A stretch of DNA of 39,272 nucleotides from Dactylosporangium sp. (GTDB lineage: Bacteria; Actinomycetota; Actinomycetes; Mycobacteriales; Micromonosporaceae), in the NCBI GenBank assembly GCA_025965915.1, contig JAOPWA010000123.1, forward strand, positions 1-39,272, given 5' to 3'. The position numbers and the translations under genes are program-made. The notes under the pieces are model-generated. The model saw only the letters and a list, made by a program, of their open reading frames with translations. It ran no database searches and was not told the DNA's origin. Each line of letters opens with the position of its first letter. The first letter of the stretch is position 1. Below, piece after piece: positions 15,169 to 36,710 of this stretch.

Positions 15169-15196
15169 CTCAGCTGGGTCCGGGTCGTGCCGATGT
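15169..15196 (+). promoter_or_regulatory. FliA/WhiG-type promoter of cheA
   Basis: CTCA (15169-15172), 16 bases, GCCGATGT (15189-15196). It matches the sigma-28 family pattern (Streptomyces WhiG: TAAA-N15-GCCGATAA). Transcription would start near 15204, which excludes an upstream GTG at 15195 as the cheA start. Confidence 0.8.
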
Positions 15197-15221
15197 GAGC
15201 CTCGTAGAAAAGGAGGCGGCC

Positions 15222-17567
15222 TTGGACGAGCTCGGCGACATCGTTCAGGAGTTCCTCGTGGAAAGCCACGAGAACCTGGACCAACTGGACCGCGACCTGG
15301 TGGCGCTTGAGCAGGAGCCAGGATCACGGGAACTGCTGTCAAGTATTTTCCGCACTATTCACACGATCAAGGGTACGAGCGGCTTCCTGGCTTTCAACAA
15401 GCTTGAGCGCGTGACGCACGTGGGCGAGAACCTGCTTGCCCGGCTGCGCGACGGTACCCAGGTGATGACTCCCGAGACGACCAACACGCTGCTGCGCATG
15501 GTCGACGTCGTCCGGACCCTGCTGACCGCGATCGAGGAGAGCGGCGCGGAGGGCGACGTGGACGTCGACGGCGTCATCGAGGCCGTGACCCACTGCATCG
15601 AAACCGGTAACGCGACCGTCAATCCGGCTGGCTCCGAGCCGCCTGCCGCGAAGGCGGCCCCGGCTGTCGCCACGACGACCGCGAGCGCGCCCGAGACCAA
15701 GGAAGTAAGCGCACCTGTGACCGCGGAGGCGACGCCGGATCCCGTGGCGACGCCGACTGTGGACGCCGACGTCGAGACGGCACCGGCCGCCCCGATGGCC
15801 TCGATCGTGTCGGCCGAGGAGGACAACGCCGGTGGTGAGCCCGGCACCGGACAGGCCCGGCGCAGCATCGCCGACAGCTCCATTCGGGTCGATGTCGATC
15901 TGCTCGACACGCTGATGCGGCTGGTCGGTGAGCTGGTGCTCACCCGCAACCAGATGCTGCGCGCGGTCACGGAATCGTCGGACCCGGCACTGGCCCGGAC
16001 CGGGCAACGGCTCAACCTGATTACCAGTGAGCTGCAGGAAAGCGTGATGAAGACGCGGATGCAGGCCATCGACCACCTGTGGTCGAAGCTGCCCCGCGTG
16101 GTGCGTGACCTGTCCAGCTCGGTCGGCAAGCAGGTCCGGCTGGCGATGGAGGGCCGCGAGACCGAGCTGGACCGAAGCCTGCTGGAAGCGGTCAAGGACC
16201 CGCTGACGCACCTGGTGCGTAACGCCGTCGATCACGGTATCGAGGCCGCCGCCGACCGTAAGGCCGCCGGCAAGCCGGCCGAGGGCGTGCTGACGTTGCG
16301 CGCCTACCACGAGGGTGGGCACGTCATCGTCGAGGTCGCCGACGACGGCAAGGGCATCGACCCGAACCGGATCGCCGAGGTGGCGATCCAGCGCGGGCTG
16401 CTGACCCGCGACCAGGCATCGCACCTGGATCGCCGGGAGATTCTCAACCTGCTCTTCCGCCCGGGTTTCTCCACCGCCGAGAAGGTCACCAACGTGTCCG
16501 GCCGGGGTGTCGGGATGGACGTGGTCAAGACCAACATCGAGCGGATCGGCGGGGCGGTCGACGTCGAGTCGACGCTGGGTGAGGGCACAACCTGGCGGCT
16601 GACGATCCCGCTGACGTTGGCGATCATCCAGGCGCTGACGGTGGAGTGCGGCACCGAGCGGTACGCGATTCCGCAGGTCGCCGTGCACGAGCTGGTCTAC
16701 CTTGACGGCCAGAACGGCCGGGTCATCGAGCACGCTATGGGTGCGCAGGTGTACCGCCTGCGCGGCAAGCTGCTGCCGCTGGTGCGTCTCGACGAGACCC
16801 TCGGGTTGACCGCGGGTAGCGGCGACCGGGACGTTTACGTGGCCGTGCTGCAGGCCGAGGGGCGCAAGTTCGGCCTGGTGGTCGACCGGGTGCTCAACAC
16901 CGAAGAGGTCGTGGTCAAGGCCTTGTCGTCGCGGTTCAAGGAGATCGGCATGTACGCCGGGGCGACCCTGCTCGGTGACGGCAGGGTCGCGTTGATCCTC
17001 GACGTGCCGTCCCTGGCGCGCCGGGCCCATCTCAACGTCGGCGCGGTCGAGCGCGGAAAGCAGGAGATCGACGTCACGACCAGCGGCGCCAAGGAGAACG
17101 TCGACCGGCTGCTCATCGCCGGCGTCGGTGACCGGCGGGTGGCGATCCCACTGGACATGGTGACCCGGCTCGAGGAGTTCCCGCTGGAGCGCTTCGAGCG
17201 GGTCGGCAGCCGGGAGGTCGTGCAGTACCGCGACCAGATCCTGCCGGTGCTGCGCCTGGCCCAACTGCTCGGCGTGTACTCGCAAGACCAGGACGTCACG
17301 TCGGTGCCGGTGGTCGTCTACACCGAACGTGGGCGCAGTGTCGCCCTCGCGGTGGACCGGATCATCGACATCGTCGAAGACGTCGTGGGTGCCGAGCGCG
17401 ACTTCGGCGACGACGGACTGAAGGGCTCTGCGGTCATCCAGTCGCGGGTCACCGAGCTGCTCGACGTCCGTCGCGCGATCATGGCCGCGGACCCGCGGTT
17501 CGACGCCGAGAGCTCCGACGCCGAGGGCGGCGCGTACGACATCGACTCGATGATGGTGGGAGCGTAA
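15222..17567 (+). CDS. cheA: Chemotaxis histidine kinase CheA with two CheW-like domains
   Basis: TTG 15222 is preceded by AAGGAGG (15210-15216), giving 781 residues. The domains in order are: HPt (1-105; phospho-His47 in FRTIHTIKGTSGF); a Pro/Ala/Thr-rich linker (about 130-215) where a folded P2 is not evident; the dimerisation helices with LMRLVGELVLTRNQML; the GHKL ATPase (N-box HLVRNAVDHGIE, G1 VADDGKGID, G2 GRGVGMDVV); a CheW-like P5 domain (about 465-600); and a second CheW-like domain (about 625-760; LLIAGVGDRRVAIPLDMV). It would phosphorylate the CheY proteins and CheB encoded nearby, in receptor arrays. The second P5-like domain is unusual compared with the standard enzyme. Confidence 0.95.
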   Translation: MDELGDIVQEFLVESHENLDQLDRDLVALEQEPGSRELLSSIFRTIHTIKGTSGFLAFNKLERVTHVGENLLARLRDGTQVMTPETTNTLLRMVDVVRTLLTAIEESGAEGDVDVDGVIEAVTHCIETGNATVNPAGSEPPAAKAAPAVATTTASAPETKEVSAPVTAEATPDPVATPTVDADVETAPAAPMASIVSAEEDNAGGEPGTGQARRSIADSSIRVDVDLLDTLMRLVGELVLTRNQMLRAVTESSDPALARTGQRLNLITSELQESVMKTRMQAIDHLWSKLPRVVRDLSSSVGKQVRLAMEGRETELDRSLLEAVKDPLTHLVRNAVDHGIEAAADRKAAGKPAEGVLTLRAYHEGGHVIVEVADDGKGIDPNRIAEVAIQRGLLTRDQASHLDRREILNLLFRPGFSTAEKVTNVSGRGVGMDVVKTNIERIGGAVDVESTLGEGTTWRLTIPLTLAIIQALTVECGTERYAIPQVAVHELVYLDGQNGRVIEHAMGAQVYRLRGKLLPLVRLDETLGLTAGSGDRDVYVAVLQAEGRKFGLVVDRVLNTEEVVVKALSSRFKEIGMYAGATLLGDGRVALILDVPSLARRAHLNVGAVERGKQEIDVTTSGAKENVDRLLIAGVGDRRVAIPLDMVTRLEEFPLERFERVGSREVVQYRDQILPVLRLAQLLGVYSQDQDVTSVPVVVYTERGRSVALAVDRIIDIVEDVVGAERDFGDDGLKGSAVIQSRVTELLDVRRAIMAADPRFDAESSDAEGGAYDIDSMMVGA

Positions 17568-17570
17568 GAG

Positions 17571-18017: not shown

Positions 18018-18030
18018 GTACTATCCGATC

Positions 18031-18070: not shown

Positions 18071-18158
18071 GACTCGTTTGGTAAGAGATTCACGCAGAGT
18101 TACGTAGGTAACCGATCGGGGGACGCAGCGGGGAGTGCGACGGTTGCAGACTGGGTGC

Positions 18159-19055
18159 ATGTACAGCCTTGTCAGTGCTCCCGTTCTCGGATTCGACCTG
18201 TCCCGCCTGCCTGGCGGGTCGGCAACCGCCGATGTGCTTCTCCGCGGGCTTTCGCTTACTGACGGTGACATTGATGTCCTCGCCAACTTCCGGATGGATG
18301 ACTGGGACCGGCTGGCCCTGTGGCAGGACGTGGACGAGGCGGCTCGGCAGCGCCAGACCGTACGCGACCTGTCGGCCGACCCGAGCGACGCCCACCAGAC
18401 GCTCGCCCTGCTCGAGCAGGCCCCTATCGGCACGGTTGACGGATTGCTGCAGTGTGTACGCCACGACGTCCTGGGCTGGACCTGGAAGTCCACCGGCGAT
18501 TCCCCGGCGGCGCAGAGCGGGACCGCCGCCCAGGCGACGTCCGTCATCTGCGATGCGGTCGTCGCCGCGTACCTGCGCGACCTGCTGCCGGTGCAGTCCC
18601 GCCGCAGCCTCGCGGTCGGCTGGCTCTCCGCGGCACGCTGGCTGCCGGTACGCCCAATGCACCTCGGACCGCAGCATGATGACATTTCCGCGCTGTTGAG
18701 CCGGGTGCGCGCGCTGAGTCCGGCCGAGCTCGCCCGGCTGGGCGTCGCCGCCGAGGTGGCCCGCCGCAGTGCCAGCGACTGGGCGCCTGCCGTACACGCG
18801 GCTTCGTGGGCGGTCTACGTCTCGGAGCGGGTACGGGCCGCGGCCGCCGCCCAGTTGATGCTCGTCCAGGCTGTCGACGACGCGGGTATCCCGGTGGCCG
18901 ACCGCGCCGGTGGGGCGTGGAACCTGCTCAGCGGTGCCGTCCAGGCCATGATGGTCCGCGACCTGCTGGCTGCCGAGACGGTGCGGCGGCTCGTCGACCC
19001 GCTGCTGGTGGCGCTCGGCCCGACCGAGGTCACCGAGGGCGGTTCCCGCCAGTAG
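18159..19055 (+). CDS. Unknown protein encoded between cheW and cheB
   Basis: From ATG 18159 the product has 298-299 residues and no recognised domain, signal peptide or membrane segment. It looks largely alpha-helical. An acidic N-terminal region has LSLTDGDIDVLANFRMDDWDRLALWQDV. The centre contains VICDAVVAAYLRDLLPV, and the C-terminal half is rich in Ala with VHAASWAVYVSERVRAAAAAQL. Start choice is uncertain: GTG 18135 is also in frame and neither has a strong ribosome site. No CTCA-N16-GCCGAT promoter precedes it, unlike the che operons on both sides. An inverted repeat GTTAC-GTAG-GTAAC (18099-18112) lies upstream. A chemotaxis-related role is suggested only by position. Confidence 0.7.
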   Translation: MYSLVSAPVLGFDLSRLPGGSATADVLLRGLSLTDGDIDVLANFRMDDWDRLALWQDVDEAARQRQTVRDLSADPSDAHQTLALLEQAPIGTVDGLLQCVRHDVLGWTWKSTGDSPAAQSGTAAQATSVICDAVVAAYLRDLLPVQSRRSLAVGWLSAARWLPVRPMHLGPQHDDISALLSRVRALSPAELARLGVAAEVARRSASDWAPAVHAASWAVYVSERVRAAAAAQLMLVQAVDDAGIPVADRAGGAWNLLSGAVQAMMVRDLLAAETVRRLVDPLLVALGPTEVTEGGSRQ

Positions 19056-19119
19056 CAAGCAGGATTCCCGGATAGTTCGGGATTCCCCGGAATAGTGCGG
19101 TTCATCGGTACGCACTTTT

Positions 19120-19147
19120 CTCATCCGTCACCCGATCGCGCCGATAT
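19120..19147 (+). promoter_or_regulatory. FliA/WhiG-type promoter of the cheB operon
   Basis: CTCA (19120-19123), 16 bases, GCCGATAT (19140-19147). It would drive cheB-cheR-cheY-cheX-like-cheY2 and the last gene of the operon. Confidence 0.8.
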
Positions 19148-19201
19148 GGGCAGGGAACGGATGGCCGGGCGGTGGCCGTCCCAGTGCGGGGAGGCCGCTA
19201 C

Positions 19202-20386
19202 GTGATCTCGGTCCTGGTCGTTGACGACTCTGTCGTCATTCGACGCCTGGTCACCGATGCGCTAGCCGAGGACCCGGAGATCCGGGTGGTAGGTACTGCT
19301 CCCAACGGGCGCGTCGCCTTGGCGAAGATCGAACAGCTCAGACCCGACCTGGTGACCCTCGACATCGAGATGCCCGTTCTTGACGGCCTCGGCACCCTTC
19401 GCGAATTGCGCCCCCGCTACCCGCGACTGCCGGTGATCATGTTCAGCACGCTGACCGCGTCGGGGGCGACCGCCACGCTCGACGCGCTTGCCGCGGGTGC
19501 GAGCGACTACGTCACGAAGCCCTCCAACGTGGGCAGCTTCGAGGAGTCGAAGCGCAGCGTACGGGAGCAGCTCATCCCGCGGATCCACGCGCTGTGCGAG
19601 CGGGGCTCCGTTCGTCGGCCGCGTCGCTATGCGGCGCCGAATCCACCGGGCACCGCACCGCCCACCGGCGGCTTCGCCTTCGCGCCAGCCCTGCCCGGCC
19701 TGGCCGGCGTGCCGCGCATCGGGAAGCCACCGGCGGGTACGTCGGTCGCCTCGTCGGCGGCCAACCGCCCGCGTACCGAACGGGTGGACCTGCTCGCGAT
19801 CGGCTGTTCCACGGGTGGACCGGACGCCCTGTCCAAGGTCCTCCAGTCTCTGCCCGCCACCCTGCCGGTCCCGATCGTAGTGGTCCAGCACATGCCGCCG
19901 GTGTTCACGAAGATGTTCGCCGAGCGGCTCAACCGCATCTGCGCCCTGGAGGTGATCGAGGCGGCGGGGAAGGAGCAGGTGCGCCCCGGCACCGTCTACA
20001 TCGCACCGGGCGACTTCCATCTCGAGGTCGTCCGCTCCGGTACCTCGGTGTTGACGATGCTGCAGAGCGGCCCTCCGGAGAACTTCTGCCGGCCCGCCGT
20101 CGACATCCTGTTCCGATCGGTCGCGCGAGCTTACGGAGGCAAGGTCCTGGCAACTGTTCTGACCGGTATGGGCCAGGACGGCAGGCGTGGCGCCGAGGTG
20201 CTGCGCGCCGAGGGCGCCGAGATCGTCGCCCAGGACGAAGCGACATCCGTCGTGTGGGGCATGCCGGGCGCCATCACCCACGCCGGCCTCGCCGACGCCG
20301 TCCTTCCCCTACCTGACATAGCCAACTATCTCGTTTCGCGCATCGCCGCAGGGCGCGGCGCACGGTCCCAGGAGGTGACCCGATGA
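19202..20386 (+). CDS. cheB: Chemotaxis protein-glutamate methylesterase CheB
   Basis: GTG 19202 with GGGGAGG at 19188-19194 gives 394 residues. The receiver domain (1-125) has VVDDS and phospho-acceptor Asp54 in VTLDIEMPVLDG. A linker of about 65 residues follows. The methylesterase domain has the triad Ser203 (AIGCSTGG), His230 (VVQHMPP) and Asp326 (TGMGQDGRRG). It removes methyl groups from, or deamidates, chemoreceptors to reset signalling, opposing CheR, whose gene overlaps its 3' end by four bases. A longer frame from GTG 19172 lacks a ribosome site. Confidence 0.96.
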   Translation: MISVLVVDDSVVIRRLVTDALAEDPEIRVVGTAPNGRVALAKIEQLRPDLVTLDIEMPVLDGLGTLRELRPRYPRLPVIMFSTLTASGATATLDALAAGASDYVTKPSNVGSFEESKRSVREQLIPRIHALCERGSVRRPRRYAAPNPPGTAPPTGGFAFAPALPGLAGVPRIGKPPAGTSVASSAANRPRTERVDLLAIGCSTGGPDALSKVLQSLPATLPVPIVVVQHMPPVFTKMFAERLNRICALEVIEAAGKEQVRPGTVYIAPGDFHLEVVRSGTSVLTMLQSGPPENFCRPAVDILFRSVARAYGGKVLATVLTGMGQDGRRGAEVLRAEGAEIVAQDEATSVVWGMPGAITHAGLADAVLPLPDIANYLVSRIAAGRGARSQEVTR

Positions 20387-22097: not shown

Positions 22098-22468
22098 CGG
22101 TACCGATGAAGATTCTGATCGCGGACGACAGCCGCGTGATGCGGCAGATCGTCACCCGTACCCTGCGTCAGGCCGGTTACGACGGTCATGACCTGGTGGA
22201 GGCCGCGGACGGCCAGCAGGCCTACGACGCCGTGGTGAACGACAACCCGGACCTGGTGCTGTCGGACTGGAACATGCCCGAGATGACCGGCATCGAGGTG
22301 CTGCGCAGGCTGCGCGCCACCGGCATGCAGGTTCCCTTCGGGTTCGTGACCTCGGAGGGTACCCCGGAGATGCGCAACGCCGCCGAGGAGGCGGGCGCGC
22401 TCTTCCTCGTCACCAAGCCGTTCACGGCTGAGGCGTTTCGTGACGTTTTGGACCCAATTTTAGGATAA
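22094..22468 (+). CDS. CheY-type response regulator (second copy)
   Basis: The 124-residue receiver has ADDS at 10-13, Asp58 in VLSDWNMPEMTG, Thr86 in GFVTSEG and Lys108 in LVTKPF. It shares the DWNMPEM core with the first CheY but differs elsewhere, so it is not a recent duplicate. GTG 22094 overlaps the upstream stop (GTGA); ATG 22106 is an alternative that gives MKILIADDS. It sits between two genes with possible phosphatase-like E-x-x-N motifs. Confidence 0.92.
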   Translation: MTVPMKILIADDSRVMRQIVTRTLRQAGYDGHDLVEAADGQQAYDAVVNDNPDLVLSDWNMPEMTGIEVLRRLRATGMQVPFGFVTSEGTPEMRNAAEEAGALFLVTKPFTAEAFRDVLDPILG

Positions 22469-22476
22469 TGTGAACT

Positions 22477-22959
22477 ATGCGCTTCCAGCTTCCCGTACCC
22501 AAAGATGTTCGTGATCTCTTCGAGGATCTCCTTGGACGCCCCATCACCGTGGGTACGGCCGATCCGGTCCTCGTGGAGGGCTTGAAGACGACGCTCGTGA
22601 GCCTGTACACCGATGACAAGAAGAAGCTCTGGGCAGTCGCCGGCATGGACCTGCCGCTGACGGTGTACGCCGGGGCGGCGCTCGGTCTGCTTCCTCCCGG
22701 GGGTGCCCAGGACTGCGTCGACGACGGCGTCGTCACGGAGACGGTGGCGGAGAACGTCCGGGAGGTCTGCAACATCATGACCGTCCTGCTCAACCGCGAG
22801 GGTGGCCCGCACCTCAAGCTCTACCAGGTCTTCCTGCCTGGCGAGCCGCCACCCAACGACGCCGGTGCGATCCTGCTGGCGCTCGGCCGTCGCCTCGACC
22901 TCACGGTCGAGGTCGGTGGTTACGGCAGCGGCAAGGTTTCCATCGCCCTGGCTGAGTAG
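22477..22959 (+). CDS. Unknown protein of the che operon with a possible CheC-like E-x-x-N motif
   Basis: The 160-residue soluble protein follows cheY2 by eight bases and ends the operon. It contains PVLVEGLKTTLVSLYTDDKK, then MDLPLTVYAGAALGLLPPGG, then ENVREVCNIMTVLLNREGG, where E-x-x-N resembles the catalytic pair of CheC/CheX. It ends with LDLTVEVGGYGSGKVSIAL. I do not recognise a named family. Similar proteins appear, as I recall, beside cheY in other motile actinobacteria. A role as a CheY-P phosphatase or switch accessory is inferred from the motif and position only. A strong terminator follows. Confidence 0.75.
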   Translation: MRFQLPVPKDVRDLFEDLLGRPITVGTADPVLVEGLKTTLVSLYTDDKKKLWAVAGMDLPLTVYAGAALGLLPPGGAQDCVDDGVVTETVAENVREVCNIMTVLLNREGGPHLKLYQVFLPGEPPPNDAGAILLALGRRLDLTVEVGGYGSGKVSIALAE

Positions 22960-22972
22960 GTCGTTACCCCCG

Positions 22973-23021
22973 AAAACGAACTCCCCGCGCGACAACGGCG
23001 TCGCGCGGGGAGTTCGTTTTT
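22973..23021. terminator. Bidirectional terminator between che and flhA operons
   Basis: Perfect 21-bp arms (22973-22993 and 23000-23020) with a 6-base loop. A T-run ends the + strand arm and the A-run beginning the left arm gives a T-run on the - strand. It separates the converging che operon (stop 22959) from the last gene of the flhA operon (stop 23040). Confidence 0.95.
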
Positions 23022-23039: not shown

Positions 23040-23390
23040 CTACTCGGCGTTGTTGTCGGTGGTCTCTCTATCGGTGCTGCGCCGGGCTGCCGCCATCAGC
23101 GCCGGGTTCGCACGCGCGACTTCCAGGGCTTCGATGGCCGCCTCCTGGGTGCTCTCGCGGGCGGTCTCATGCGTGATCTCCGGCGCGGTCTCACGGGCGT
23201 CGGCCTCGTTGGCGCGGCGGTACCCGTTCGCCATCGCCCGCAGCAGTGCCAGCATCACCGCCGCCACCACGACCGCGATCAGGTACCTGATCAACGCCGC
23301 CGTGTAGTCCATGTCGTGTGCCACGAAGGCGTGGTACAGCGCCGGGCTGTCCAGCAGCGCGGCGAGCAGGAGCGTGGACAACTTCGCCAT
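23040..23390 (-). CDS. Small membrane protein at the end of the flhA operon
   Basis: The 116-residue product has an N-terminal amphipathic stretch, one clear membrane helix (about 32-52; LIRYLIAVVVAAVMLALLRAM) and a charged C-terminal region, probably a coiled coil (EADARETAPEITHETARESTQEAAIEAL in several pieces). No family was recognised. It lies 17 bases after the PilZ gene stop in the same direction. A structural or anchoring role at the flagellar base is possible but unsupported beyond location. Confidence 0.7.
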   Translation of the reverse strand: MAKLSTLLLAALLDSPALYHAFVAHDMDYTAALIRYLIAVVVAAVMLALLRAMANGYRRANEADARETAPEITHETARESTQEAAIEALEVARANPALMAAARRSTDRETTDNNAE

Positions 23391-23407: not shown

Positions 23408-24070
23408 TCAGTAGTCCGCGTCGGCGGCCGCGCGGCGGGCCAGGATCTGCTGGTGCATCACGTACCGGCGCACCATCTCCGCCTGGCGCTCGCTCAGCTC
23501 CAGCATCACGATCATGTCGACCGTCTTGGCGATGGGGTCTTCGATGGTCCGCAGGACCGATCCGTCGGCGTCGAGCATGTCGTCGCCGAGCTGCACCACC
23601 GCGCTGACCGCCTCACCGTCGCCCAGCCTGACCCACTCGTCGCTGTCCGGTCGGGCGTCCTTGATCTTGAACCGGACACCGCCCTCGCTGACGTCGGACG
23701 CGGAACCGGAGATCATGACGTCGCGCTCCTTCGCCCTGACCCGGACCGGCTCACCGCCACCCGCGCGCACGAACCGGCGCCGCTGGTGAAGCACGGGCGC
23801 CGACTCGACGGTCAGGGTCCAACACCGGGTCGGTACTCCCTCGACCCGCGACGTCGACACCAGCCTGGCGTCGACGACATAGCGTCCACGTGGCCCTGCG
23901 ACCCAGCCCAGCGCGATGATGGCCCCGATCTCGGGGATCTCGACCGTCTCGTTGAACGGCGCGGACACGACCACGTTCTTGCCCTCGATCAACTCGATCC
24001 GCGACTCGAGCTCGGTCCCCTCATGCGTCAGGCTGACCGGTGAACTGATCTCCGGCATCGGCTCGGTCAT
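23408..24070 (-). CDS. PilZ-domain c-di-GMP-binding flagellar protein (YcgR-like)
   Basis: The 220-residue protein has an N-terminal YcgR-like beta domain (about 15-95; GKNVVVSAPFNETVEIP) and a C-terminal PilZ domain (about 98-205). Both c-di-GMP ligand motifs are intact: RRRFVR (RxxxR form) near 101 and DVSEGG near 131. Such proteins slow or bias the motor when c-di-GMP rises. ATG 24070 overlaps the stop of the FlhF-like gene (ATGA). An EAL-HDOD protein encoded in the same locus could share the signal. The two-domain plan is intact, so binding is likely; the motor target is inferred. Confidence 0.87.
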   Translation of the reverse strand: MTEPMPEISSPVSLTHEGTELESRIELIEGKNVVVSAPFNETVEIPEIGAIIALGWVAGPRGRYVVDARLVSTSRVEGVPTRCWTLTVESAPVLHQRRRFVRAGGGEPVRVRAKERDVMISGSASDVSEGGVRFKIKDARPDSDEWVRLGDGEAVSAVVQLGDDMLDADGSVLRTIEDPIAKTVDMIVMLELSERQAEMVRRYVMHQQILARRAAADADY

Positions 24071-25347
24071 TCCACTACCTCTTCCAAGCGGCGGCACAGC
24101 AGTTCGGCCCAAAGGCGCGGGGTGGCGACGCGGGCGTCGATCATGGCCACGGGTATCCCCAGTTGCAGGACGGTAGCGGGGTCATCCGTTTCCGCGCACC
24201 CGTACGCCGCGATCGCATCCACACGGCCGATATCGGCAAGCCGACGCGCACTATCCGCAGTCTTACGTGTGGCGTCCGTCACGCCCCAAATCGCCGCAGC
24301 GTCGCAACTTTCGATGATCGAGCGGGCCCGTTCGGTGCCGCTACCGTCAGTCGGTACGTCGACGACGACGACGATCGGCAGGTCCGCCTTGCGTCGCAGC
24401 CTGGCGATCCGTCTGGCCGTGTACTCGGGGCCCTTCATCCGCCGGCTCGGGTGGATGCCGGTGCCCTTGCAACTCGCGGCAGCCAACGCGATGCGGGTCG
24501 GCGGCAGGTCCAGCGACTCGGCGACGGTCCGGGCCACCTCCAGCGCCCTGTGCAGTTCGCCGGCGATCACGAGGACCTCGCCGTCGCGCGTCACCTTCGG
24601 GGCGTCCGGCAGGAGCTTGACGACCCTGACGATCTCACGGTACGAGTCGAACCCGGTGACCAGCTCGGCCAACTGCGTCGGCAGGCCGAGGCGGGTCAGC
24701 ACGGTTGACACCGAGGAGTAGGTCGGCAGTCGGCCGGGCTGGTAACGCGGGATCAGCGGAGCGGCCGGCGTGGCCGGGGGTGTGACGGCGGGAAGTTCGG
24801 TGACGGGAAGTTCGGTGACGGGAAGTTCGGTGACAGGCAGTTCGATGGCGGGCGCCGCTGTGACCGGGGTGGCGTCCGCCGGTGCGGTGGCCTCGACAGC
24901 GGTGGGGGCATCACCCGGCACGAGGGGAACCCATGCCGGCGCGGCGTAGCCGGCCAGTACGTCGGCGAAGGCCGCCGCTCCGGCGCTGACCTCCTGCGCC
25001 GCCTGCATGGCGTTGTCAGCAGAGGCCGACTCGTCCGGGCCCAGGTACGGCAGCAGTTTCCGTTCCTGCGCCTCGACCAGCGCGACCAGTGCGTCGGCCG
25101 GGCTGGCAGCACTCGCCGGGCTGGCCGGTTTCGTGCTGGCCGTGGACGGTAGGCCCGGCTTGCCGGTGGCAGACCCGTCGGCCACCTCGATGGTCAATTC
25201 GAAGCGGTGGCGGGTGAACAGGCCGCCGACGCCCGCGGCGCGAACCCGGTCGGCCGACACGATCTTGGCCGCAGGTCCGTGCTCGGCGCGCACCCGCGCC
25301 AGCAACTGCTGGATGTCGTTGCCCTCAAGCAGCAATCGAGTAGGCAC
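24067..25347 (-). CDS. FlhF-like protein lacking the P-loop
   Basis: The 426-residue protein starts like FlhF (LLLEGNDIQQLLARVRAEHGPAAKIVSADRV, in pieces, residues 5-35), has a Pro/Thr-rich middle with four PVTEL-type repeats, and ends with a region resembling the SRP54-type GTPase fold. That region includes LPIVVVVDVPTDGSG (Walker-B-like), AAIWGVTDATRKTADSARRL and VDAIAAYGCAETDDPATVLQLGIPVAMID. No GxxxxGKT/S P-loop and no TKxD base-binding motif is seen; the P-loop place reads IALAAASCKGTGIHP. GTG 25347 overlaps the flhA 3' end by 23 bp. FlhF normally sets the flagellar site with FlhG. Here GTP binding is unlikely. Confidence 0.7.
   Translation of the reverse strand: MPTRLLLEGNDIQQLLARVRAEHGPAAKIVSADRVRAAGVGGLFTRHRFELTIEVADGSATGKPGLPSTASTKPASPASAASPADALVALVEAQERKLLPYLGPDESASADNAMQAAQEVSAGAAAFADVLAGYAAPAWVPLVPGDAPTAVEATAPADATPVTAAPAIELPVTELPVTELPVTELPAVTPPATPAAPLIPRYQPGRLPTYSSVSTVLTRLGLPTQLAELVTGFDSYREIVRVVKLLPDAPKVTRDGEVLVIAGELHRALEVARTVAESLDLPPTRIALAAASCKGTGIHPSRRMKGPEYTARRIARLRRKADLPIVVVVDVPTDGSGTERARSIIESCDAAAIWGVTDATRKTADSARRLADIGRVDAIAAYGCAETDDPATVLQLGIPVAMIDARVATPRLWAELLCRRLEEVVE
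24791..24850 (-). repeat. 15-bp coding repeat, four copies
   Basis: ggaagttcggtgacg-type units at 24791, 24806, 24821 and (degenerate) 24836 encode PVTEL repeats in the linker of the FlhF-like protein. Confidence 0.93.
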
Positions 25348-27364
25348 TGTTCACCACTCCCACGGTCTCGACGCGCAGCGCGCATTGGGCAATCTCGGCG
25401 TACGACAGGACGGGCAGCCGCGGTGCGGCCATCTGGAGCAGGCGCCGCAGCGCCAGGCGGAGCTGGGGCGAGCAGACGACCACGGGGCTGGCGCCGCGCT
25501 GCTCGGCGGCTTCGACCAGCCGGTTCAGCTCTTCCATGATCGATTCCGCGCGAGCGGTGTCGACCAGCAGTTGCAGGCCGTTCTCGGTGGGGCGTAGCGA
25601 CTCGAGCAGCGACTGCTCAAGGCGCGGGTCGAGCGTGACGACCGTGAGCGCGCCGTCCGTGGCGTACCGGGCGGCGATGGCCGGGCCGAGCGCGGCGCGG
25701 CTGGCTTCCAGCAGAGAATCGTGATCGGTGACGTTCTTCGCGGTCAGTGAGAGCGACTCGAAGATGCGGACGAGGTCACGGATCGGTACGTCCTCGTCGA
25801 GCAGTGCCTGCAGCACCCGCTGCACCTGGCCGAGGCTGAGCAGGGCCGGGGTGAGCTCCTCGACGACGACCGGATTGGTCTGCTTGACGACCTCGGTGAG
25901 CGCCCGCACGTCCTCACGCCCGAGCAGGCGGCTGGCGTTGGCGCGGACGACCTCGGCGAGGTGCGTGATGACGACCGACGCCCGATCCACCACGGTCGCG
26001 CCGGACAGGTCGGCCTGGTGTCGCAGCTCGGCCGGTACCCACTTGCCGGCCAGGCCGAAGACCGGCTCGACACCGGCCCGGCCGGGCAGGAACTCCAGGT
26101 TCTCACCGATCGCGAGGACTGTGCCGGGAGGCGCCTGGCCCTGGGCGACGTCCACGCCGCTGATGCGGATCGCGTACGTCGACAGCGGCAGGTCCAGGTC
26201 GTCGCGGGTGCGTACCGGCGGCATCACGATGCCCAGGTCGAGCGCGACCTTGCGGCGCAGCGACCGTACCCGGTCCAGCAGGTCCCCGCCGGCGCCGTCG
26301 ACGAGGTCGACGAGGTCGGGGGAGAGCGCCAGCTCGAGCGGGTCGACGCGCATCTCGCCGAGCAGAGTCTCGGTCGCGTCGGGTGCGGTCGGCGCGTTGG
26401 TCTGGGACTCATCGGCCTCTTCGGCCTGGGTGGCGGGCATCCGCTGCGCGATGAACAGCACGACTCCGCCGACCAGCAGGAAGGGAATTTTGGGCAGGCC
26501 CGGGATCAGGCACAGGGCAAGGGCCGAACCGCCGGCGATCCGCAGGGCGTTCCGGTGCTGGCCGAGTTGCAGGGCCACGTTGGTGCCCATGTCGCCGTCG
26601 GTCGCCGAGCGGGTCACGATCAGACCGGTCGCGACCGACAGCAACAGCGCGGGAATCTGCGAGACCAGGCCGTCGCCGACGCTCAGGAGGCTGTACTTCT
26701 GGATGGCCTCGACAGGGGACAGGCCCTTCTGGATCATGCCGACGACGAAGCCGCCGATGAGGTTGATCAGCGTGATGACGATGGCCGCGATCGCGTCGCC
26801 CTTGACGAACTTGGAGGCACCGTCCATCGCGCCGTAGAAGTCGGCCTCGGAGGCGACCTCCGCACGCCGCTTGCGCGCTTCGACGTCGTCGATCAGGCCG
26901 GCGTTGAGGTCGGCGTCGATCGCCATCTGCTTACCGGGCATGGCGTCGAGGGTGAACCTGGCGCCCACCTCGGCCACCCGTTCGGCGCCCTTCGTGATCA
27001 CGAGGAACTGGATCACGACCAGGATCATGAAGATCACCAGGCCGATCACGAGCTGGCCGCCGACCACGAAATGGCCGAACGCGTCGATGACCTTGCCGGC
27101 GAAACCGTCCATGAGGACCAGGCGGGTGGCGCTGATGTTCAGCGCGAGCCGGAACAGCGTGGCTATCAGCAGCAACGACGGGAAGGTGGAGAAGTCCAGC
27201 GGGCGCTTGACGTACATGCTGACCAGCACGATCAACAGCGCACCGGTGATGTTCAGCGCGATGAAAAGGTCGATGAGCATCGAGGGCAGCGGAACGACCA
27301 TCATGACGATGATCAGAACGACGCCCAGGGGAACGGCGAACTGGCTCAACCGGCGACCGGACAC
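25325..27364 (-). CDS. flhA: Flagellar export gate protein FlhA
   Basis: From GTG 27364 the product has 679 residues, the family length. Eight membrane segments fill the first half, including VPLPSMLIDLFIALNITGALLI and the GDAIAAIVITLINLIGG region; the FHIPEP-type cytoplasmic loop contains RFTLDAMPGKQMAIDADLNAG. The C-terminal cytosolic domain (from about 330) binds export substrates and chaperones. FlhA forms the nonameric gate of the type III export apparatus with FlhB and FliPQR. The start is fixed downstream of the FliA-type promoter (27438-27465); GGAAGG lies 4 bases before this GTG. The frame is open to 27490 but that part lies across or upstream of the promoter. Confidence 0.95.
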   Translation of the reverse strand: MSGRRLSQFAVPLGVVLIIVMMVVPLPSMLIDLFIALNITGALLIVLVSMYVKRPLDFSTFPSLLLIATLFRLALNISATRLVLMDGFAGKVIDAFGHFVVGGQLVIGLVIFMILVVIQFLVITKGAERVAEVGARFTLDAMPGKQMAIDADLNAGLIDDVEARKRRAEVASEADFYGAMDGASKFVKGDAIAAIVITLINLIGGFVVGMIQKGLSPVEAIQKYSLLSVGDGLVSQIPALLLSVATGLIVTRSATDGDMGTNVALQLGQHRNALRIAGGSALALCLIPGLPKIPFLLVGGVVLFIAQRMPATQAEEADESQTNAPTAPDATETLLGEMRVDPLELALSPDLVDLVDGAGGDLLDRVRSLRRKVALDLGIVMPPVRTRDDLDLPLSTYAIRISGVDVAQGQAPPGTVLAIGENLEFLPGRAGVEPVFGLAGKWVPAELRHQADLSGATVVDRASVVITHLAEVVRANASRLLGREDVRALTEVVKQTNPVVVEELTPALLSLGQVQRVLQALLDEDVPIRDLVRIFESLSLTAKNVTDHDSLLEASRAALGPAIAARYATDGALTVVTLDPRLEQSLLESLRPTENGLQLLVDTARAESIMEELNRLVEAAEQRGASPVVVCSPQLRLALRRLLQMAAPRLPVLSYAEIAQCALRVETVGVVNSAYSIAA

Positions 27365-27437
27365 GACACCTTCCACTGTGTGGCGACTGCGATGAAGCCC
27401 GTTCCGTGGCCGTATCTGTGCCGTCCTGGCGATGGAC

Positions 27438-27465
27438 ACATCGGCCCTGTCTGCCGTCACGTGAG
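27438..27465 (-). promoter_or_regulatory. FliA/WhiG-type promoter of the flhA operon
   Basis: On the - strand: CTCA (27465-27462), 16 bases, GCCGATGT (27445-27438). Its -35 stands 7 bp from the -35 of the divergent promoter for the EAL-HDOD gene. Confidence 0.8.
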
Positions 27466-27472
27466 GGTTTTC

Positions 27473-27500
27473 CTCAGCAGCTGCCGACAATTGCCGATCG
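27473..27500 (+). promoter_or_regulatory. FliA/WhiG-type promoter of the EAL-HDOD gene
   Basis: CTCA (27473-27476), 16 bases, GCCGATCG (27493-27500). The GTG start at 27508 is separated from the -10 by 7 bases, so the mRNA is probably leaderless. Confidence 0.8.
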
Positions 27501-27507
27501 GTGCGGC

Positions 27508-28788
27508 GTGTCCACCACCTCTGAAGCTCAGGCCGGGCAGATCGTGCACGTCGGGCGTCAGCCGCTGTACAACCCTGCCGGCGACGTCATCGGGTACGAG
27601 CTGCTCTTCCGTGGCGCCAATACCGAGGTAGAGGCGTCGCGCCGCAACGCGTACGCGACCAGCCAGGTGATCGTGAACGCCTTCACCGAGTTCGGGCTGC
27701 CGGAACTGGTGGGCGACCACATGTGCTTCATCAACCTCACCCGTGAGTTCATCGTCGGTGAACTGGCGCTGCCGTTCGAGCCCAATCAGGTCGTCCTGGA
27801 GATCCTGGAGACCGTCGAGGTGGACGACGAGGTCATCGCCGGGGTCACCCGCCTGGTCGAGGGCGGGTACCAGATCGCGCTCGACGACTTCGTCTTCGGC
27901 CTCGGCCACGAGCGGCTGCTGGACCTCGCGTCGTACGTGAAGATCGACGTGCTCGACGGCGACGTAGAGCGCATCACCTCAGTGGTGGGGGCCTGCCGAA
28001 AATACCCGGGTATCAAGCTGGTCGCCGAGAAGGTGGAGACCGCCGAGCACACCATGCTCGCCCATGACCTCGGGTTCGAGCTTTATCAGGGGTATGCGCT
28101 GAGCCGCACCCAGGTGGTGTCGATCGCCACCCTCGCGCCGTCGCGCCTTCGCCGTCTGGAGTTGCTGGGTGCGCTGACCGGACCCGAGACCGACCTCGAC
28201 CATGTCGTGTCGATCGTGACCAGCGACCCGGCGCTCGCGTTCCGGGTACTGCGGGCCACGAACGCCGCCTCCGGCGGCCTGTCGCGCCGGATCTCCTCGG
28301 TACACGAGGCGGTCGTCATGCTCGGCGGCCGCCGGATCCGGGAGTGGGTGACGCTGATGCTGGTGTCGGACATCGCCGAGGCGAGCGACGATCACCTGTC
28401 GACGGCCATGGCCCGGGCGCGGTTGTGCCAGACCATAGCTGCCCGGCTGGATGCCTCGGGCGACGCCGCATTCATCGCCGGCCTCCTGTGGGGTATCTCG
28501 GACGTGCTCGGCGTTCCGGTGGCGGACCTGGTCAGCAGGCTGCCGCTCGCCGAGGAGGTGACCGACGCGCTGGTGCACGGCACCGGTCCCCTCGGTGAGG
28601 TGCTGTCGATGGTGCGGGCGTACGAGGGCGCCGACGACGAGGCGCTCGTCCACACGAAGGTTTCCCCATCGGAACTGGCCAAGGCGTACCTGAGCGCTGT
28701 GGGCTGGTCCGTGCGGACCGTCCAGGGCGTCCTCGGCCGGTCCGCGCCGCACGAGACTCCCCCCGACGACGTTTCGTCTACCGCCTGA
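27508..28788 (+). CDS. EAL and HDOD domain signalling protein (YuxH type)
   Basis: The 426-residue protein has an EAL-like domain (about 10-205) and an HDOD domain (about 215-370; DPALAFRVLRATNAASGG and IREWVTLMLVS). The EAL signature reads ELL. The other conserved acids and Asn are largely kept: FINLTREF, VVLEILE, ALDDFVFG, YVKIDVLD and VAEKVET. It may be a weak or inactive phosphodiesterase, or a c-di-GMP sensor. GTG 27508 is the start because of the promoter position. The gene splits the flagellar block, with flhB converging 6 bp away and flhA diverging, and may report c-di-GMP to motility together with the PilZ protein. Confidence 0.88.
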   Translation: MSTTSEAQAGQIVHVGRQPLYNPAGDVIGYELLFRGANTEVEASRRNAYATSQVIVNAFTEFGLPELVGDHMCFINLTREFIVGELALPFEPNQVVLEILETVEVDDEVIAGVTRLVEGGYQIALDDFVFGLGHERLLDLASYVKIDVLDGDVERITSVVGACRKYPGIKLVAEKVETAEHTMLAHDLGFELYQGYALSRTQVVSIATLAPSRLRRLELLGALTGPETDLDHVVSIVTSDPALAFRVLRATNAASGGLSRRISSVHEAVVMLGGRRIREWVTLMLVSDIAEASDDHLSTAMARARLCQTIAARLDASGDAAFIAGLLWGISDVLGVPVADLVSRLPLAEEVTDALVHGTGPLGEVLSMVRAYEGADDEALVHTKVSPSELAKAYLSAVGWSVRTVQGVLGRSAPHETPPDDVSSTA

Positions 28789-30957: not shown

Positions 30958-30970
30958 GAGAAGCGCGCCC

Positions 30971-32253: not shown

Positions 32254-32262
32254 GCGTACCCC

Positions 32263-33030
32263 TCAGGACCGCTGGTCGGACAGGGAGACGATCTCGGTGA
32301 CCCGGAGGCCGAAGTTCTCGTCGATCACCACGACCTCGCCCCGGGCGATGAGCCTGCCGTTGACCAGCAGGTCGGCCGGCCCGCCGGCGGCGCGGTCCAG
32401 TTCGACGACGGTGCCGGGGGTCAGCGCGAGCAGTTCCCGCACGCTCATTCGGGTACGCCCGAGCTCGGCGGTGACCTCCATCTCCACGTCGTGGAGCAGG
32501 TCCAGGCCGGTACGCGGGGGAGAGGCCGGCAAGTCCTTCGTGGACGGGGTGGACGGGGTGGATGGGGTGGACGGCGTGGTGGCGGCCGTCGTGTCGACCT
32601 TGACCAGCAGGCCCACGACGCCACGCACGTCGGTGCCGTCCGTCAGCGGTACGAGCGTCCCACCCGCGGCGACCAGCGAAGCGAGCGCCTCGGCGGCGTC
32701 GGTGACGTTGCCCGGGTCGACGACGACCGGCCCGAGCGTAGCCGCGGCAGCCTCGATGGCCGGGCGTACGGCCTGGGTTACGTCCAGCGAGCCGAGCGGG
32801 GTCTCACCCAGCGCGTCGACCAGGTCCTGGGCGACCATGACGAGGATCTCGCCCTGGGCCGCGCCGGCGAAGCGGGCCCGGATCGCCTGTCCCTCGAGCG
32901 TGATCTCGGCCGCGTCCTGGACGGGCGTACCGGCCGAAAGTGGGCTGCTCGCGGGCAGCAGGGCCACCGCGGCCTCGGCCGCCGCGAGCGCTCGGCCCAG
33001 ATCCTGCGAGGTATTGGTCGGAGCGGTCAT
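32263..33030 (-). CDS. fliN: Flagellar switch protein FliN with an extra N-terminal domain
   Basis: The 255-residue protein ends in a SpoA domain (about 172-250; [32 protein letters not shown] and [15 protein letters not shown] in pieces) typical of FliN. The first 150 residues form a separate alpha/beta domain ([29 protein letters not shown]) resembling the CheC/CheX-like part of FliY. A TPS repeat linker (9-bp units at 32542-32577) joins them. A standard FliN is about half this length. No E-x-x-N phosphatase motif is evident in the extra domain. ATG 33030 shares one base with the fliM stop. Confidence 0.88.
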
Positions 33031-33983
33031 CAGCGGTCTTCCTCCTTGGCGGGTGCCACGATGAGGCACGCCAGGCGAGAGCCCTGGCTGCCGGGTACGG
33101 CGTGGGCGAAGGTCATGCCGGCGGTAGTGACCGCGAGCGGCTGCGTCACCGGGTGGTTGAGCGTGACGACGTCACCGGGGCGCAGGCTGATCAGTTCCTC
33201 GGGGCGCATACGCATCTGCTGGAATCGCACGGCCACATCGAGCGGGACGCTCTCCATGCTGGCGACGAGGTTGTTATGGGCCACCTCGCGGGTGGCGCGC
33301 TGCGCGGGGCTGAGCTGGACGTCGGCGCGGTCGCCCTGCAGCTTCGGAAAGATCATTCCGAACGGCAGGCAGATCGTCGCGACGCACTCCTCGGCGCCCA
33401 CGCGCATTTCGAACGAGGCGACGATCACCGGGTCGGAAGCGCCGCCGGCCTGCACGAACTGCGGGTTGTACTCGATACCGGTCAGCTGTGGCCGGATTGA
33501 CGCGATGCCTTCGAACGCGTAGCGCAGCTCGCCGAGCATGCGGCCGAGGAGGCCCTGCAGCAGCGGTGTCTCGATCTCGCTCAGCGGCCGCTCGGGCTGA
33601 GGGCCGCCGGAGCCGCCCAGCATGTGGTCGATGGAGGTCATCGCGATGGCCAGTGAGAACTCGGCGATCGCGGTGCCGGGCAGGGGCTCCATGCTGAGCT
33701 TGGCCACGATGGTCGGGCTCGACAGCGACGCGATGTACTCGTCATAGGTGAACTGCTCGATCGACAACAGCGTGACCTGCGATACCGCCCGCAGGCTCGT
33801 CGTCAGGATGGTGCTGAACTGGCGCGCGAAGGTCTCGTACGCGATCTGCAGCGTACGGGTGTGTTCGCGGGACAGGTTCGTGGGGCGTCGGAAGTCATAC
33901 GGCGCCGGTCCGGCGCTCTTGGACCGGCGGTTGATGCGACCGGCGGTGCGGGAGGGGCCGGCCATGGACGACGCTTGAGTCAC
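33030..33983 (-). CDS. fliM: Flagellar switch protein FliM lacking the CheY-binding peptide
   Basis: The 317-residue protein has the FliM core from [18 protein letters not shown] (about 29) through the CheC-like middle domain ([12 protein letters not shown]) and a C-terminal SpoA-like part ([21 protein letters not shown]). The usual N-terminal LSQ-EIDALL peptide that binds CheY-P is absent; instead there are about 27 Ser/Arg-rich residues. GTG 33983 lies 7 bases after the -10 of a FliA-type promoter (33991-34018), so a missing upstream segment is unlikely and the mRNA is probably leaderless. FliM forms the C-ring with FliN. Confidence 0.93.
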
Positions 33984-33990
33984 GTCGCAA

Positions 33991-34018
33991 CCATCGGCCG
34001 GCCCGGGCCCGGCTTGAG
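33991..34018 (-). promoter_or_regulatory. FliA/WhiG-type promoter directly upstream of fliM
   Basis: On the - strand: CTCA (34018-34015), 16 bases, GCCGATGG (33998-33991). It is an internal promoter within the flbD-flhB block, in the 86-bp gap between fliL and fliM. Confidence 0.75.
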
Positions 34019-34069
34019 GAAACCGTGTCGGCTGATTGGGTGATATGTAGTAGCCGGTAGGCGGGCGGG

Positions 34070-34507
34070 CTACTGCATCACGAACTCGGTGAAGTACAGG
34101 TCCATGACCTCGTCCTTGTACGCCTTGTTGATCTTTTCGCGAAGCGACGCCTTCGCCTTGTCGCGGGCCGCGTTGGAGGCCAGCTCGGCGAGGGGCCGGT
34201 TGCTGAACTCGGAGATCGCGATGTCCAGCGCCTGGCTTCCGTCCGGGTCCGCGACGGCGGTCGAGGTCGCCTGCAGGGCGAGTTTGAGCTTGAGGAAGTG
34301 CCCGTCGGCCAGGTTGACGGTGATCGCGTCCAGCGGGACGACCTTGCCCGGCTTGGGCGGCGGCGGCGTGCTGGGCCCGGTGAAGAACATGAAGTACCCG
34401 CCGGCACCGCCGCCGAGCAGGACCACCACCGCGGCCACCATGATGATCAGCTTCTTCTTCGACCTCTTCTTCGGCGCCTCTTCGGCGGCCTTCTCATCTT
34501 TTGCCAT
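34070..34507 (-). CDS. fliL: Flagellar basal body protein FliL
   Basis: The 145-residue protein has a basic N-terminus (APKKRSKKKLI), one membrane helix (IIMVAAVVVLLGGGAGGYFMFF) and the FliL periplasmic domain, with ITVNLADGHFLKLKLALQ and a C-terminal VMDLYFTEFVMQ motif. FliL surrounds the stator and affects torque. ATG 34507 lies 33 bp after the motB stop. Length and plan are normal. Confidence 0.93.
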   Translation of the reverse strand: MAKDEKAAEEAPKKRSKKKLIIMVAAVVVLLGGGAGGYFMFFTGPSTPPPPKPGKVVPLDAITVNLADGHFLKLKLALQATSTAVADPDGSQALDIAISEFSNRPLAELASNAARDKAKASLREKINKAYKDEVMDLYFTEFVMQ

Positions 34508-34540
34508 GATCTTTCCTTTGTTCGCGCCGGCAGGGGCAGG

Positions 34541-35452: not shown

Positions 35453-35501
35453 GCCGGCGGCTCGCCTCGCAGGTGGGCGGCGCGCCGGGGCCCGGCGCTC
35501 A

Positions 35502-36275
35502 TCAGGCCGCCGCCTTCTTCTTGGACTCGGTGCCCGGCGGCAGCAGGCTGCGCAGCTTCTGGGCAACCAGGCGCGGGTTGGCGCCGGCCTGGATGTTGAT
35601 GATGCCGGCGATCACCAGCTCCATCTGGCCGCACTCGACCTCGGACAGGCGCTTGAGCCGGTTGCCGATCGGCAACCAGATCACGTTGGCGCTCAGGATG
35701 CCCCACAGCGTCGCCACGAACGCAGCCGCGATCAGCTCACCGAGGGTCGCCGGTTGGCTGAGGTTGGACAGTACGTGGACCAGGCCGATGACAGTGCCGA
35801 TGATGCCGATGGTCGGCGCGTAGCCGCCCATGTCGGCGAAGATCTTCGCGCCGGCCTTGTCCGCCTTGCGCTTCGCGTCGACCTCGCCCTCGAGGATCTC
35901 CCGCAGCTCTTCGGAGTCGGTACCGTCGATCGCCAACTGCAGGCCGCGCCTCAGGAACGGGTCAGCGACGTCCTTCATCGCGTCTTCGAGGGCCAGCAGG
36001 CCCTCTCGCCGCGCCTTCTCGGCGAGCTTGACCATCGTCTCGACCAGCTCGTCGGGCTTGCCGGGCTTGGCGAGGAAGGCCCGCTTGATCTGGCTGACCA
36101 GGCCGGTGGCGTCGCGCAGCAGGCCGCCGGCCATACCGACGCCGATCGTGCCGACGAAGACGAGAATGAGCGGTGCCGGCAGCATGATGTGCGAGATCGG
36201 GGTGCCCTCAAGGGTCATGGACAGGAAGATGGCGGCGAACGCGAGTCCGACGCCGATCAGGCTTGCCGGATCCAT
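35502..36275 (-). CDS. motA: Stator protein MotA
   Basis: The 257-residue protein has four membrane segments: 1-22, about 28-50 and the pair near 150-205, with GGYAPTIGIIGTVIGLVHVL and AAFVATLWGILSANVIWLP. The large cytoplasmic loop (about 65-145) carries EGLLALEDAMKDVADPFLRRGLQLAIDG, typical of the family. It forms the ion channel with MotB and contacts FliG (not in the window). ATG 36275 shares a base with the flbD stop and has GGGAG five bases upstream. Confidence 0.95.
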   Translation of the reverse strand: MDPASLIGVGLAFAAIFLSMTLEGTPISHIMLPAPLILVFVGTIGVGMAGGLLRDATGLVSQIKRAFLAKPGKPDELVETMVKLAEKARREGLLALEDAMKDVADPFLRRGLQLAIDGTDSEELREILEGEVDAKRKADKAGAKIFADMGGYAPTIGIIGTVIGLVHVLSNLSQPATLGELIAAAFVATLWGILSANVIWLPIGNRLKRLSEVECGQMELVIAGIINIQAGANPRLVAQKLRSLLPPGTESKKKAAA

Positions 36276-36583
36276 CAGCGCTCCCTGCGGTGAAGCTGGA
36301 CGACATTGGCACCGGGCTCGGCGGGGTTCTCGTCGTCACCGTTGTCGTGCGGTACGGCCTCCCGGCGCGCCTCGGCGGGCTGGGTGACCATCTGCTGTGC
36401 GTCGGCGACCACGGACGCCCGGTACCGCCGGATCAGCGCGACGAACTCGGCCAGCGACTCACCCACGACGTACTTCGTGCCGTCCACCAGGGTGACGACG
36501 GTGTCGGGGGTGGAGTCGGCGCGCTCGACCAGGTCAGGGTTGAGCGCGAACACCGGGCCGTTCAGGCGCGTCAGGAGTATCAC
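36275..36583 (-). CDS. flbD: FlbD-family flagellar protein
   Basis: The 102-residue product starts with the family core ILLTRLNGPVFALNPDLVE, then ADSTPDTVVTLVDGTKYVV and GESLAEFVALIRRYRA. This core is normally about 60-70 residues long and its role is not firmly known. A hydrophilic tail of about 35 residues is added here. GTG 36583 is chosen; AAGGA stands 9-10 bases upstream. It is the first gene of a unit that begins at the FliA-type promoter 36683-36710. It is distinct from the Caulobacter regulator of the same name. Confidence 0.88.
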   Translation of the reverse strand: MILLTRLNGPVFALNPDLVERADSTPDTVVTLVDGTKYVVGESLAEFVALIRRYRASVVADAQQMVTQPAEARREAVPHDNGDDENPAEPGANVVQLHRRER

Positions 36584-36682
36584 GGTGGTCCGTCCTTGGA
36601 GCGGTGGTCGGGCGATCATCGAGCCGCGGCTCGTGGCCGGGGCACGGACAGTCTGCGGACCCTTCCCTGGGCCCACCTGCAA

Positions 36683-36710
36683 CATCGGCCGATATCGGGC
36701 AGGGCTGAGG
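36683..36710 (-). promoter_or_regulatory. FliA/WhiG-type promoter of the flbD-motA-flhB unit
   Basis: On the - strand: CTCA (36710-36707), 16 bases, GCCGATGT (36690-36683). Transcription would start near 36676, about 93 bases before flbD. Confidence 0.8.

Follow-up and report, generated by a model that had tools for sequence, protein, structure and literature searches.

Which sigma factor reads a short element that recurs, with fixed spacing and direction, before the flagellar and chemotaxis genes of a motile actinomycete? The question is raised by 39,272 nucleotides (nt) of contig JAOPWA010000123.1 from Dactylosporangium sp. (hereafter the window), which belong to an assembly of 6.13 Mb in 685 contigs that is 86% complete. 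The sequence CTCA, followed after 16 bases by GCCGAT (CTCA-N16-GCCGAT), occurs in seven exact copies in the window, six of which precede cheA, cheB, a gene for a protein with EAL and HDOD domains, flhA, fliM and flbD. On the strength of sequence comparison we propose, with a probability of roughly 0.92, that these six sites are promoters of a FliA-type sigma factor. It is also likely that motile Actinomycetes use a separate FliA clade marked by a private promoter code, CTCAG-N15-GCCGAT, a near-private invariant arginine and a conserved C-terminal helix, and that one sub-clade has rewired both the recognition helix and its promoters to CTWAC-N15-GCCGAYAGT.

Proposed promoter sites in the window

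An exact scan of the window returned the six sites of a first-pass annotation on the strands and with the 16-base gap that it had described. Each site points at the gene it precedes, and the gene names are borne out by Pfam matches. The intervals given at the time were each two bases too long, because the motif covers 26 bases (thus 15169-15194 at cheA and 27440-27465 at flhA). The flhA and EAL-HDOD sites form a divergent pair.

The position of the sites, upstream of motility and chemotaxis genes, is that of FliA-dependent promoters. All six have an exact GCCGAT as the -10 box; an AA following it is not kept. The textbook -35 element, TAAA at 15-16 bp, is not found; CTCA at N16 stands in its place, in agreement with the earlier remark that the -35 departs from the TAAA of WhiG. 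The -35 is better written as CTCAG-N15, in the register of the textbook cTAAA-N15. The fifth -35 base is G in three of the six sites, and CTCAG-N15 is the class consensus in this register.

Conservation in the genus, the family and the class

Three genomes of the same genus provided 18 orthologous upstream regions, 17 of them testable (one cheA start lay outside the fetched stretch). CTCA-N16-GCCGA[AT] is kept in all 17, with T as the last base in 16. Core and spacing are thus retained while the spacers diverge, their mean identity among congeners being 0.50-0.75 per promoter. Flagellated members make up 39 of 150 sampled genomes of the family, and 12 further family loci were scanned, the cheA start being testable in none. 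At ten of these other loci the flbD site has no exact N16 copy; an exact N17 copy is present in three and a one-mismatch site in four.

The class sample comprised 394 genomes, with FlhA detected in 51 at an E-value of 1e-50. After 28 of 60 flhA loci had been dropped for a common 60-mer, 32 remained, the window being excluded. Among all tetramers and spacings before GCCGAT in these 32 loci, CTCA at spacing 16 ranks first (34 occurrences vs a background of 2.0). When tetramer-gap-pentamer pairs were enumerated upstream of genes, CTCA-N16-GCCGA was the commonest pair in two of five groups (21/122, window included, and 15/128). It was not the top pair in families f31 and f39 or in a mixed far group; promoters of these were detected only when the stretches upstream of flhA, fliM and flbD were scanned with mismatches allowed. 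Enumeration of pairs across whole loci of genomes with a far-diverged FliA (see below) yielded coding repeats only. Altogether 87 distinct sites were collected at 51 flhA loci, the seven of the window included: 24 at flhA, 19 at flbD, 10 at fliM and 27 without an assignable gene. Their extended consensus, to which the fliK copy described below contributes, is roughly GAAnccCTCAGGt-N13-GCCGAT, the last base being T in 86%. Where the genome has the sigma type described in the next section, CTCA-N16-GCCGA[AT] is found at 33 of 40 flhA loci.

The sigma factor

A single gene of the assembly, on contig C471, exceeds the cut-off of the FliA/WhiG model NCBIfam TIGR02479 (192.1 vs 189.6 bits); the six other matches reach at most 113 bits. 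The class has two groups of such sigmas: WhiG, and a divergent FliA that is often encoded near flhA. A tree of 89 sigmas unites the divergent FliA in a single, long-stemmed clade (SH-like approximate likelihood ratio test, SH-aLRT, 100) and keeps WhiG separate (100), although the tree came from a quick search and the program flagged long branches. The recognition helix of the sigma from the window's genome reads ESRVSQLRAE, that of WhiG ESRICQMHTK or close to it, which does not place the former in the WhiG clade. Arg236 is invariant in a 32-row alignment of the divergent FliA (A1), where His occupies this position in the WhiG rows, in E. coli FliA and in almost all of the outside FliA compared; of the latter, L110 and L112 have Arg too, and L080 and L124 have neither. 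The C-terminal extension of A1 contains the invariant residues R269 and Y273, and a helix at residues 265-281 is confidently predicted (mean pLDDT, the per-residue model confidence, 84.7; pTM, the overall model score, 0.44). WhiG matches to the A1 profile mostly stop near position 240 of 289, and the outside FliA proteins compared end soon after the recognition helix. The sigma is an actinobacterial FliA and not WhiG. Its last ~45 residues hold a conserved predicted helix around G-C-x-A-R-R-R-x-A-Y that is absent from the WhiG and other FliA proteins compared.

Could a WhiG-type sporulation sigma read the sites in place of FliA? WhiG is a flagellar-clade sigma with a close consensus (TAAA, GCCGATAA), and Actinoplanes is said to have WhiG and to direct its flagellar genes by WhiG-like flagellar sigmas (PMC8325347, in excerpt). 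In the 86% complete genome, however, a search at an E-value of 1e-45 returned the divergent FliA only, and the next matches, at no more than 113 bits, fall far from the ~280 bits of WhiG. Moreover, WhiG is carried by many non-flagellated genomes of the class, whereas a FliA with a profile A1 score of 330 bits or more was found in 42 of the 394 genomes, 40 of which also have FlhA. We therefore regard WhiG as a very unlikely reader of these sites and retain FliA. The FlhA-less exceptions at this score are G078 and, in part, G074.

Relatives of this FliA (L256, L257, which is partial, L258 and L259) were seen in four genomes lacking a FlhA match at an E-value of 1e-50 (G078, G074, G190 and G120). 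Those of G190 and G120 are the weaker relatives, and some of the assemblies are incomplete.

The 86% complete assembly gave no PF04316 (FlgM) match with an E-value of 1 or below, and a FlgM-gated cascade is not indicated. PMC10746217 reports FlgM to be absent from later actinobacterial classes; PMC4255298 describes no FlgM-like protein in the studied actinobacteria with WhiG orthologues and states that an analysis of what such sigmas do in simple motile actinobacteria was still lacking. A search for autoregulation upstream of the sigma gene gave a single one-mismatch site, ~500 bases away. Two contigs of this genome carry a nearly identical stretch with CTCA-N16-TCCGAT, in one case (L042:3715, - strand) upstream of the sigma gene and in the other (L262:1315, + strand) near a chemoreceptor gene.

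Predicted leaderless mRNAs

The GTG codons of fliM (33983) and of EAL-HDOD (27508) each lie exactly 9 nt past the -10 box; therefore leaderless mRNAs are predicted for both genes. The same arrangement recurs in relatives. At exact fliM sites of the genus and family, GTG follows the -10 by exactly 9 nt in 11/11, an ATG or GTG likewise lies 9 nt past the -10 of the EAL-HDOD site in all three congeners, and class-wide eight of ten fliM sites have a predicted leaderless start. Among the 87 class sites, ATG or GTG is found 15 times at an offset of 7 nt and ten times at 9 nt, against a mean of 2.6 for the other 38 offsets. It appears, then, that the fliM and EAL-HDOD mRNAs are probably leaderless. 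At cheA, the start point is predicted near 15204, and translation of CheA likely begins at TTG 15222, which follows AAAAGGAGG.

A sub-clade with a changed recognition helix and -35 element

A far-diverged FliA is encoded by eight flagellated genomes of families f39, f48 and f6. Seven of them have H[SA]AVSQ[QM] in the recognition helix in place of ESR[VI]SQ[LM], and the eighth (G138) has PSAVTQQ; two named Arthrobacter loci have HAAVSQQ. These ten switched sequences group together (SH-aLRT 100) within the actinobacterial FliA clade, and the switch is therefore one evolutionary event and not several. Ten flagellated genomes had at first been grouped as FliA-less; a profile search detected a far-diverged FliA in nine, the exception being G238. 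The three flagellated genomes left over, G390 (intermediate FliA), G238 (no FliA found) and G114 (distant sigma only), have no N16 copy.

The promoters differ along with the helix. CTCA-N16-GCCGA[AT] is found at none of the eight flhA loci, as opposed to the 33 of 40 with the other sigma type. Conversely, CTWAC-N15-GCCGAYAGT, which sits before flbD and fliM, is present at 6/8 switched loci and 0/40 of the other type; the flhA loci of G138 and G382 have neither pattern. Nine named loci from Arthrobacter, Microbacterium, Cryobacterium and like genera have the CTWAC pattern in six cases and CTCA-N16-GCCGA[AT] in two, although FliA was seen in only two of the nine and one of the loci apparently comes from a genome already counted among the eight. 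A scan of 80 whole genomes found 12 copies of the CTWAC pattern in six genomes, all among the eight, and none in the 72 others. Its reversed control occurs four times in this set, including once in G297, which belongs to the eight. Of the 12 CTWAC copies, 11 are next to fliA or no more than 20 kb from flhA; only a copy in G297 is farther off, ~26 kb from flhA. Set in register, the textbook cTAAA-N15, CTCAG-N15 and CTWAC-N15 differ at -35 positions 3 and 5. We infer that residues of the recognition helix cause the -35 change. As far as our searches reach, two points are new, the distinct recognition helix and -35 (CTCAG) of this FliA clade and the change of both in one sub-clade: neither the class-wide code nor the switch was found in literature searches of open-licence PMC papers.

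These data also bear on a second alternative, in which the repeated element is an operator or anti-terminator and not a promoter. Conservation of position and sequence, taken alone, would suit a protein-binding site equally. Against an operator speak the fixed direction with respect to the gene, the rigid spacing, a -10 half that equals the sigma-28 -10, the enrichment of start codons at 7 or 9 nt and a code that differs where the recognition helix of the sigma differs. This explanation is most improbable, and a FliA promoter is the reading that we follow.

Genome-wide occurrence and chance

The exact motif occurs 42 times in the genome, 35 of them off the window; read backwards, the pattern occurs six times. 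At the off-window density 0.23 exact copies would be expected per 39 kb, and seven are seen. Equal frequency in unrelated coding DNA, which the first-pass annotation had named as a finding that would count against it, was checked genome-wide and leaves the promoter reading standing. Its statement that the other GCCGAT or ATCGGC occurrences it had checked in coding DNA lack the CTCA partner does not extend to all coding copies, as the seventh exact copy sits inside fliK and others are found in unrelated coding DNA across the genome. Chance in a GC-rich window, to which these 35 copies, mostly in coding DNA, and a seventh window copy that is probably likewise coding might point, is next to impossible, since none of 100 shuffles reached the window count with at most one mismatch (14 copies; in the shuffles 3.52 on average and never more than 8) and all 17 testable orthologous sites are conserved.

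Ten of the 35 off-window copies are directly upstream of a gene on the same strand. The genes are fliC, a glycosyltransferase gene downstream of fliS, a 4HB chemoreceptor gene (L006) cut at a contig end, four GGDEF genes (on C29, C98, C407 and C478), one gene on C480 and two of unknown function. The frame on C480 appears to continue into a GGDEF domain. The regulon would accordingly extend to flagellin, a chemoreceptor and several diguanylate cyclases.

The test of the GGDEF genes took in 30 out of 46 matches in the genome; nine were skipped, as their frame leaves the locus, and 21 were testable. Ten of the 21 have the motif near the start with at most one mismatch (two exact), where 0.89 are expected and the reverse strand gives one of 21. 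At the methyl-accepting chemotaxis protein loci of the genome the exact motif occurs in none of five; a one-mismatch site is present in three, two of them with the site upstream on the gene's strand. GCCGAA in combination with N15-17 is counted 44 times genome-wide and 30 times in the reversed control, an excess that does not clearly amount to enrichment. With 46 GGDEF matches, the genome encodes a large diguanylate cyclase-like set.

Several observations weigh against the promoter reading. Most of the off-window exact copies (25/35) have no gene on their strand directly downstream. Five of the other ten (L001, L017, L021, L022 and L038:3402) lie inside the open reading frame (ORF) as first called, and count as upstream only if a later visible start codon is real. 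The assembly being 86% complete, another sigma may be missing from it. Beyond the genus, it is common for the sites at flbD, cheB and EAL-HDOD to be missing or changed, and at the class level an exact N16 copy is lacking at seven of the 40 flhA loci with this sigma type (four of five in f31, both in f34 and one in f42, some with near matches). The density of the motif in the 40 genomes with this FliA is only 1.6 times that in 29 non-flagellated ones (medians 6.39 vs 3.89 per Mb; Mann-Whitney p 2e-7), and 11 flagellated genomes with another FliA type or none have 4.57 per Mb (two-sided p 0.03 vs non-flagellated). Given this high genome background, the pattern alone is a weak predictor and no proof of a promoter.

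The seventh copy and other features

The copy within fliK, upstream of flgD, encodes LNPVDLGPI and falls in the C-terminal Flg_hook domain (Pfam E-value 5.8e-11). Its 'spacer' is 94-100% identical among congeners. Conservation of this kind is expected of coding DNA and contrasts with the divergent spacers of the six promoters, so this copy is probably a coding look-alike; a flgD promoter is a weaker alternative, still conceivable. A motif copy made by protein codons is a caution for motif scans. Four ORFs of the flagellar and chemotaxis cluster have no Pfam match at an E-value of 0.001: 24067-25347, 22222-22995 and 23040-23390 on the - strand and 18135-19055 on the + strand.

Table 1. Proposed FliA-type promoters, the genes that they precede, the copy within fliK and the sigma gene. 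Positions are those of the window except for the sigma gene.
Feature	Position	Strand	First base of site	Remarks
cheA(-cheW) promoter	15169..15194	+	15169	Exact motif; exact in 2/2 testable congeners
cheB-cheR-cheY promoter	19120..19145	+	19120	Exact motif; congeners 3/3 exact, other family loci 0/6
flhA promoter	27440..27465	-	27465	Exact motif; congeners 3/3 exact, other family loci 7/12
EAL-HDOD promoter	27473..27498	+	27473	Exact motif; CTCA-N16-GCCGA[AT] in congeners 3/3 (one GCCGAA), other family loci 0/3
fliM promoter	33993..34018	-	34018	Exact motif; congeners 3/3 exact, other family loci 8/10
flbD-motA-motB-fliL promoter	36684..36709	-	36709	Exact motif; congeners 3/3 exact
Seventh exact copy	38807..38832	-	38832	Within fliK; probable coding look-alike
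cheA ORF	15195..17567	+		Pfam Hpt, H-kinase_dim, HATPase_c, CheW; true start probably 15222
cheB ORF	19172..20386	+		Pfam CheB_methylest, Response_reg
EAL-HDOD ORF	27406..28788	+		Pfam HDOD 4.5e-18, EAL 3.3e-11; true start probably 27508
flhA ORF	25325..27490	-		Pfam FHIPEP 9e-252 from residue 60; true start probably downstream of promoter
fliM ORF	33030..33983	-		Pfam FliM 4.7e-43
flbD ORF	36275..36772	-		Pfam FlbD 1.8e-21; domain from residue 65, downstream of promoter
FliA-type sigma gene	Contig C471, L042:2314-3210	-		NCBIfam TIGR02479 match

Comparison with known systems

Textbook sigma-28 promoters have a spacing of 15-16. The sites described here share the -10 of textbook sigma-28 and WhiG promoters, and the spacing is equal if CTCAG is set against cTAAA. 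They differ at the -35, with C as the third base and G as the fifth where the known promoters have A, and the sigma of the window's genome has R236 in place of the usual H.

The closest likeness is to Actinoplanes missouriensis. Jang et al. in 2016 reportedly located eleven flagellar start points there by rapid amplification of 5' cDNA ends (5' RACE), arrived at CTCA(N15-17)GCCGAA and concluded that one sigma serves all flagellar genes. It is because of this reported form that the CTCA -35 is filed as a variant of FliA promoters, and the promoters of the window are additional examples of a type said to have been mapped already in A. missouriensis. In contrast to that form, all sites of the window have a spacing of 16 and a -10 that ends in T; the EAL-HDOD gene here, and several diguanylate cyclase genes elsewhere in the genome, are included. 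One further genome of the family has CTCA-N16-GCCGAT before fliM and CTCA-N17-GCCGAA before flbD; none was found before flhA. PMC11960193 lists 29 flagellar-cluster and nine chemoreceptor genes among those strongly raised in A. missouriensis at day 3.

PMC8325347 gives the flagellar consensus as TAAA/GCCGATAA and has WhiG-like sigmas directing pili and flagella in Actinoplanes. The Rubrobacter WhiG regulon, as described there, is similar in that a flagellar-clade sigma has promoters before genes for enzymes of cyclic di-GMP (c-di-GMP) metabolism. It differs in its type IV pili targets, in the TAAA that was searched as the -35 and in its anti-sigma factor, RsiG (PMC8325347).

Proposed mechanism and implications

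RNA polymerase carrying the organism's single FliA-type sigma would read the six sites. Region 4 of the sigma would contact CTCAG, the -35 box (in its longer form about GAAnccCTCAGGt), and region 2 would contact GCCGAT, the -10 box 15 bases away from CTCAG. That the sigma reads these promoters is suggested because the -35 changed too where the recognition helix of FliA changed. Transcription would start ~7-10 bases past GCCGAT, which at fliM and EAL-HDOD coincides with the GTG start codon. Because no FlgM was found, the genes for export, motor and chemotaxis, flagellin, the chemoreceptor and several c-di-GMP enzymes would all be switched on in a single tier. Expression would be timed to zoospores, a stage that we assume here from relatives. 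The earlier proposal that one sigma-28-family factor serves the export, motor, chemotaxis and c-di-GMP-linked genes thus remains the best reading of the sequence, in view of the single sigma above the cut-off and the conservation at orthologous sites.

A motif noticed by eye may in this way become a defined actinobacterial motility regulon with a testable sigma, of which diguanylate cyclases are indicated to be members. The paired change of recognition helix and -35 would amount to a natural experiment in which a sigma and its whole promoter set changed code together, with the residues and bases concerned named.

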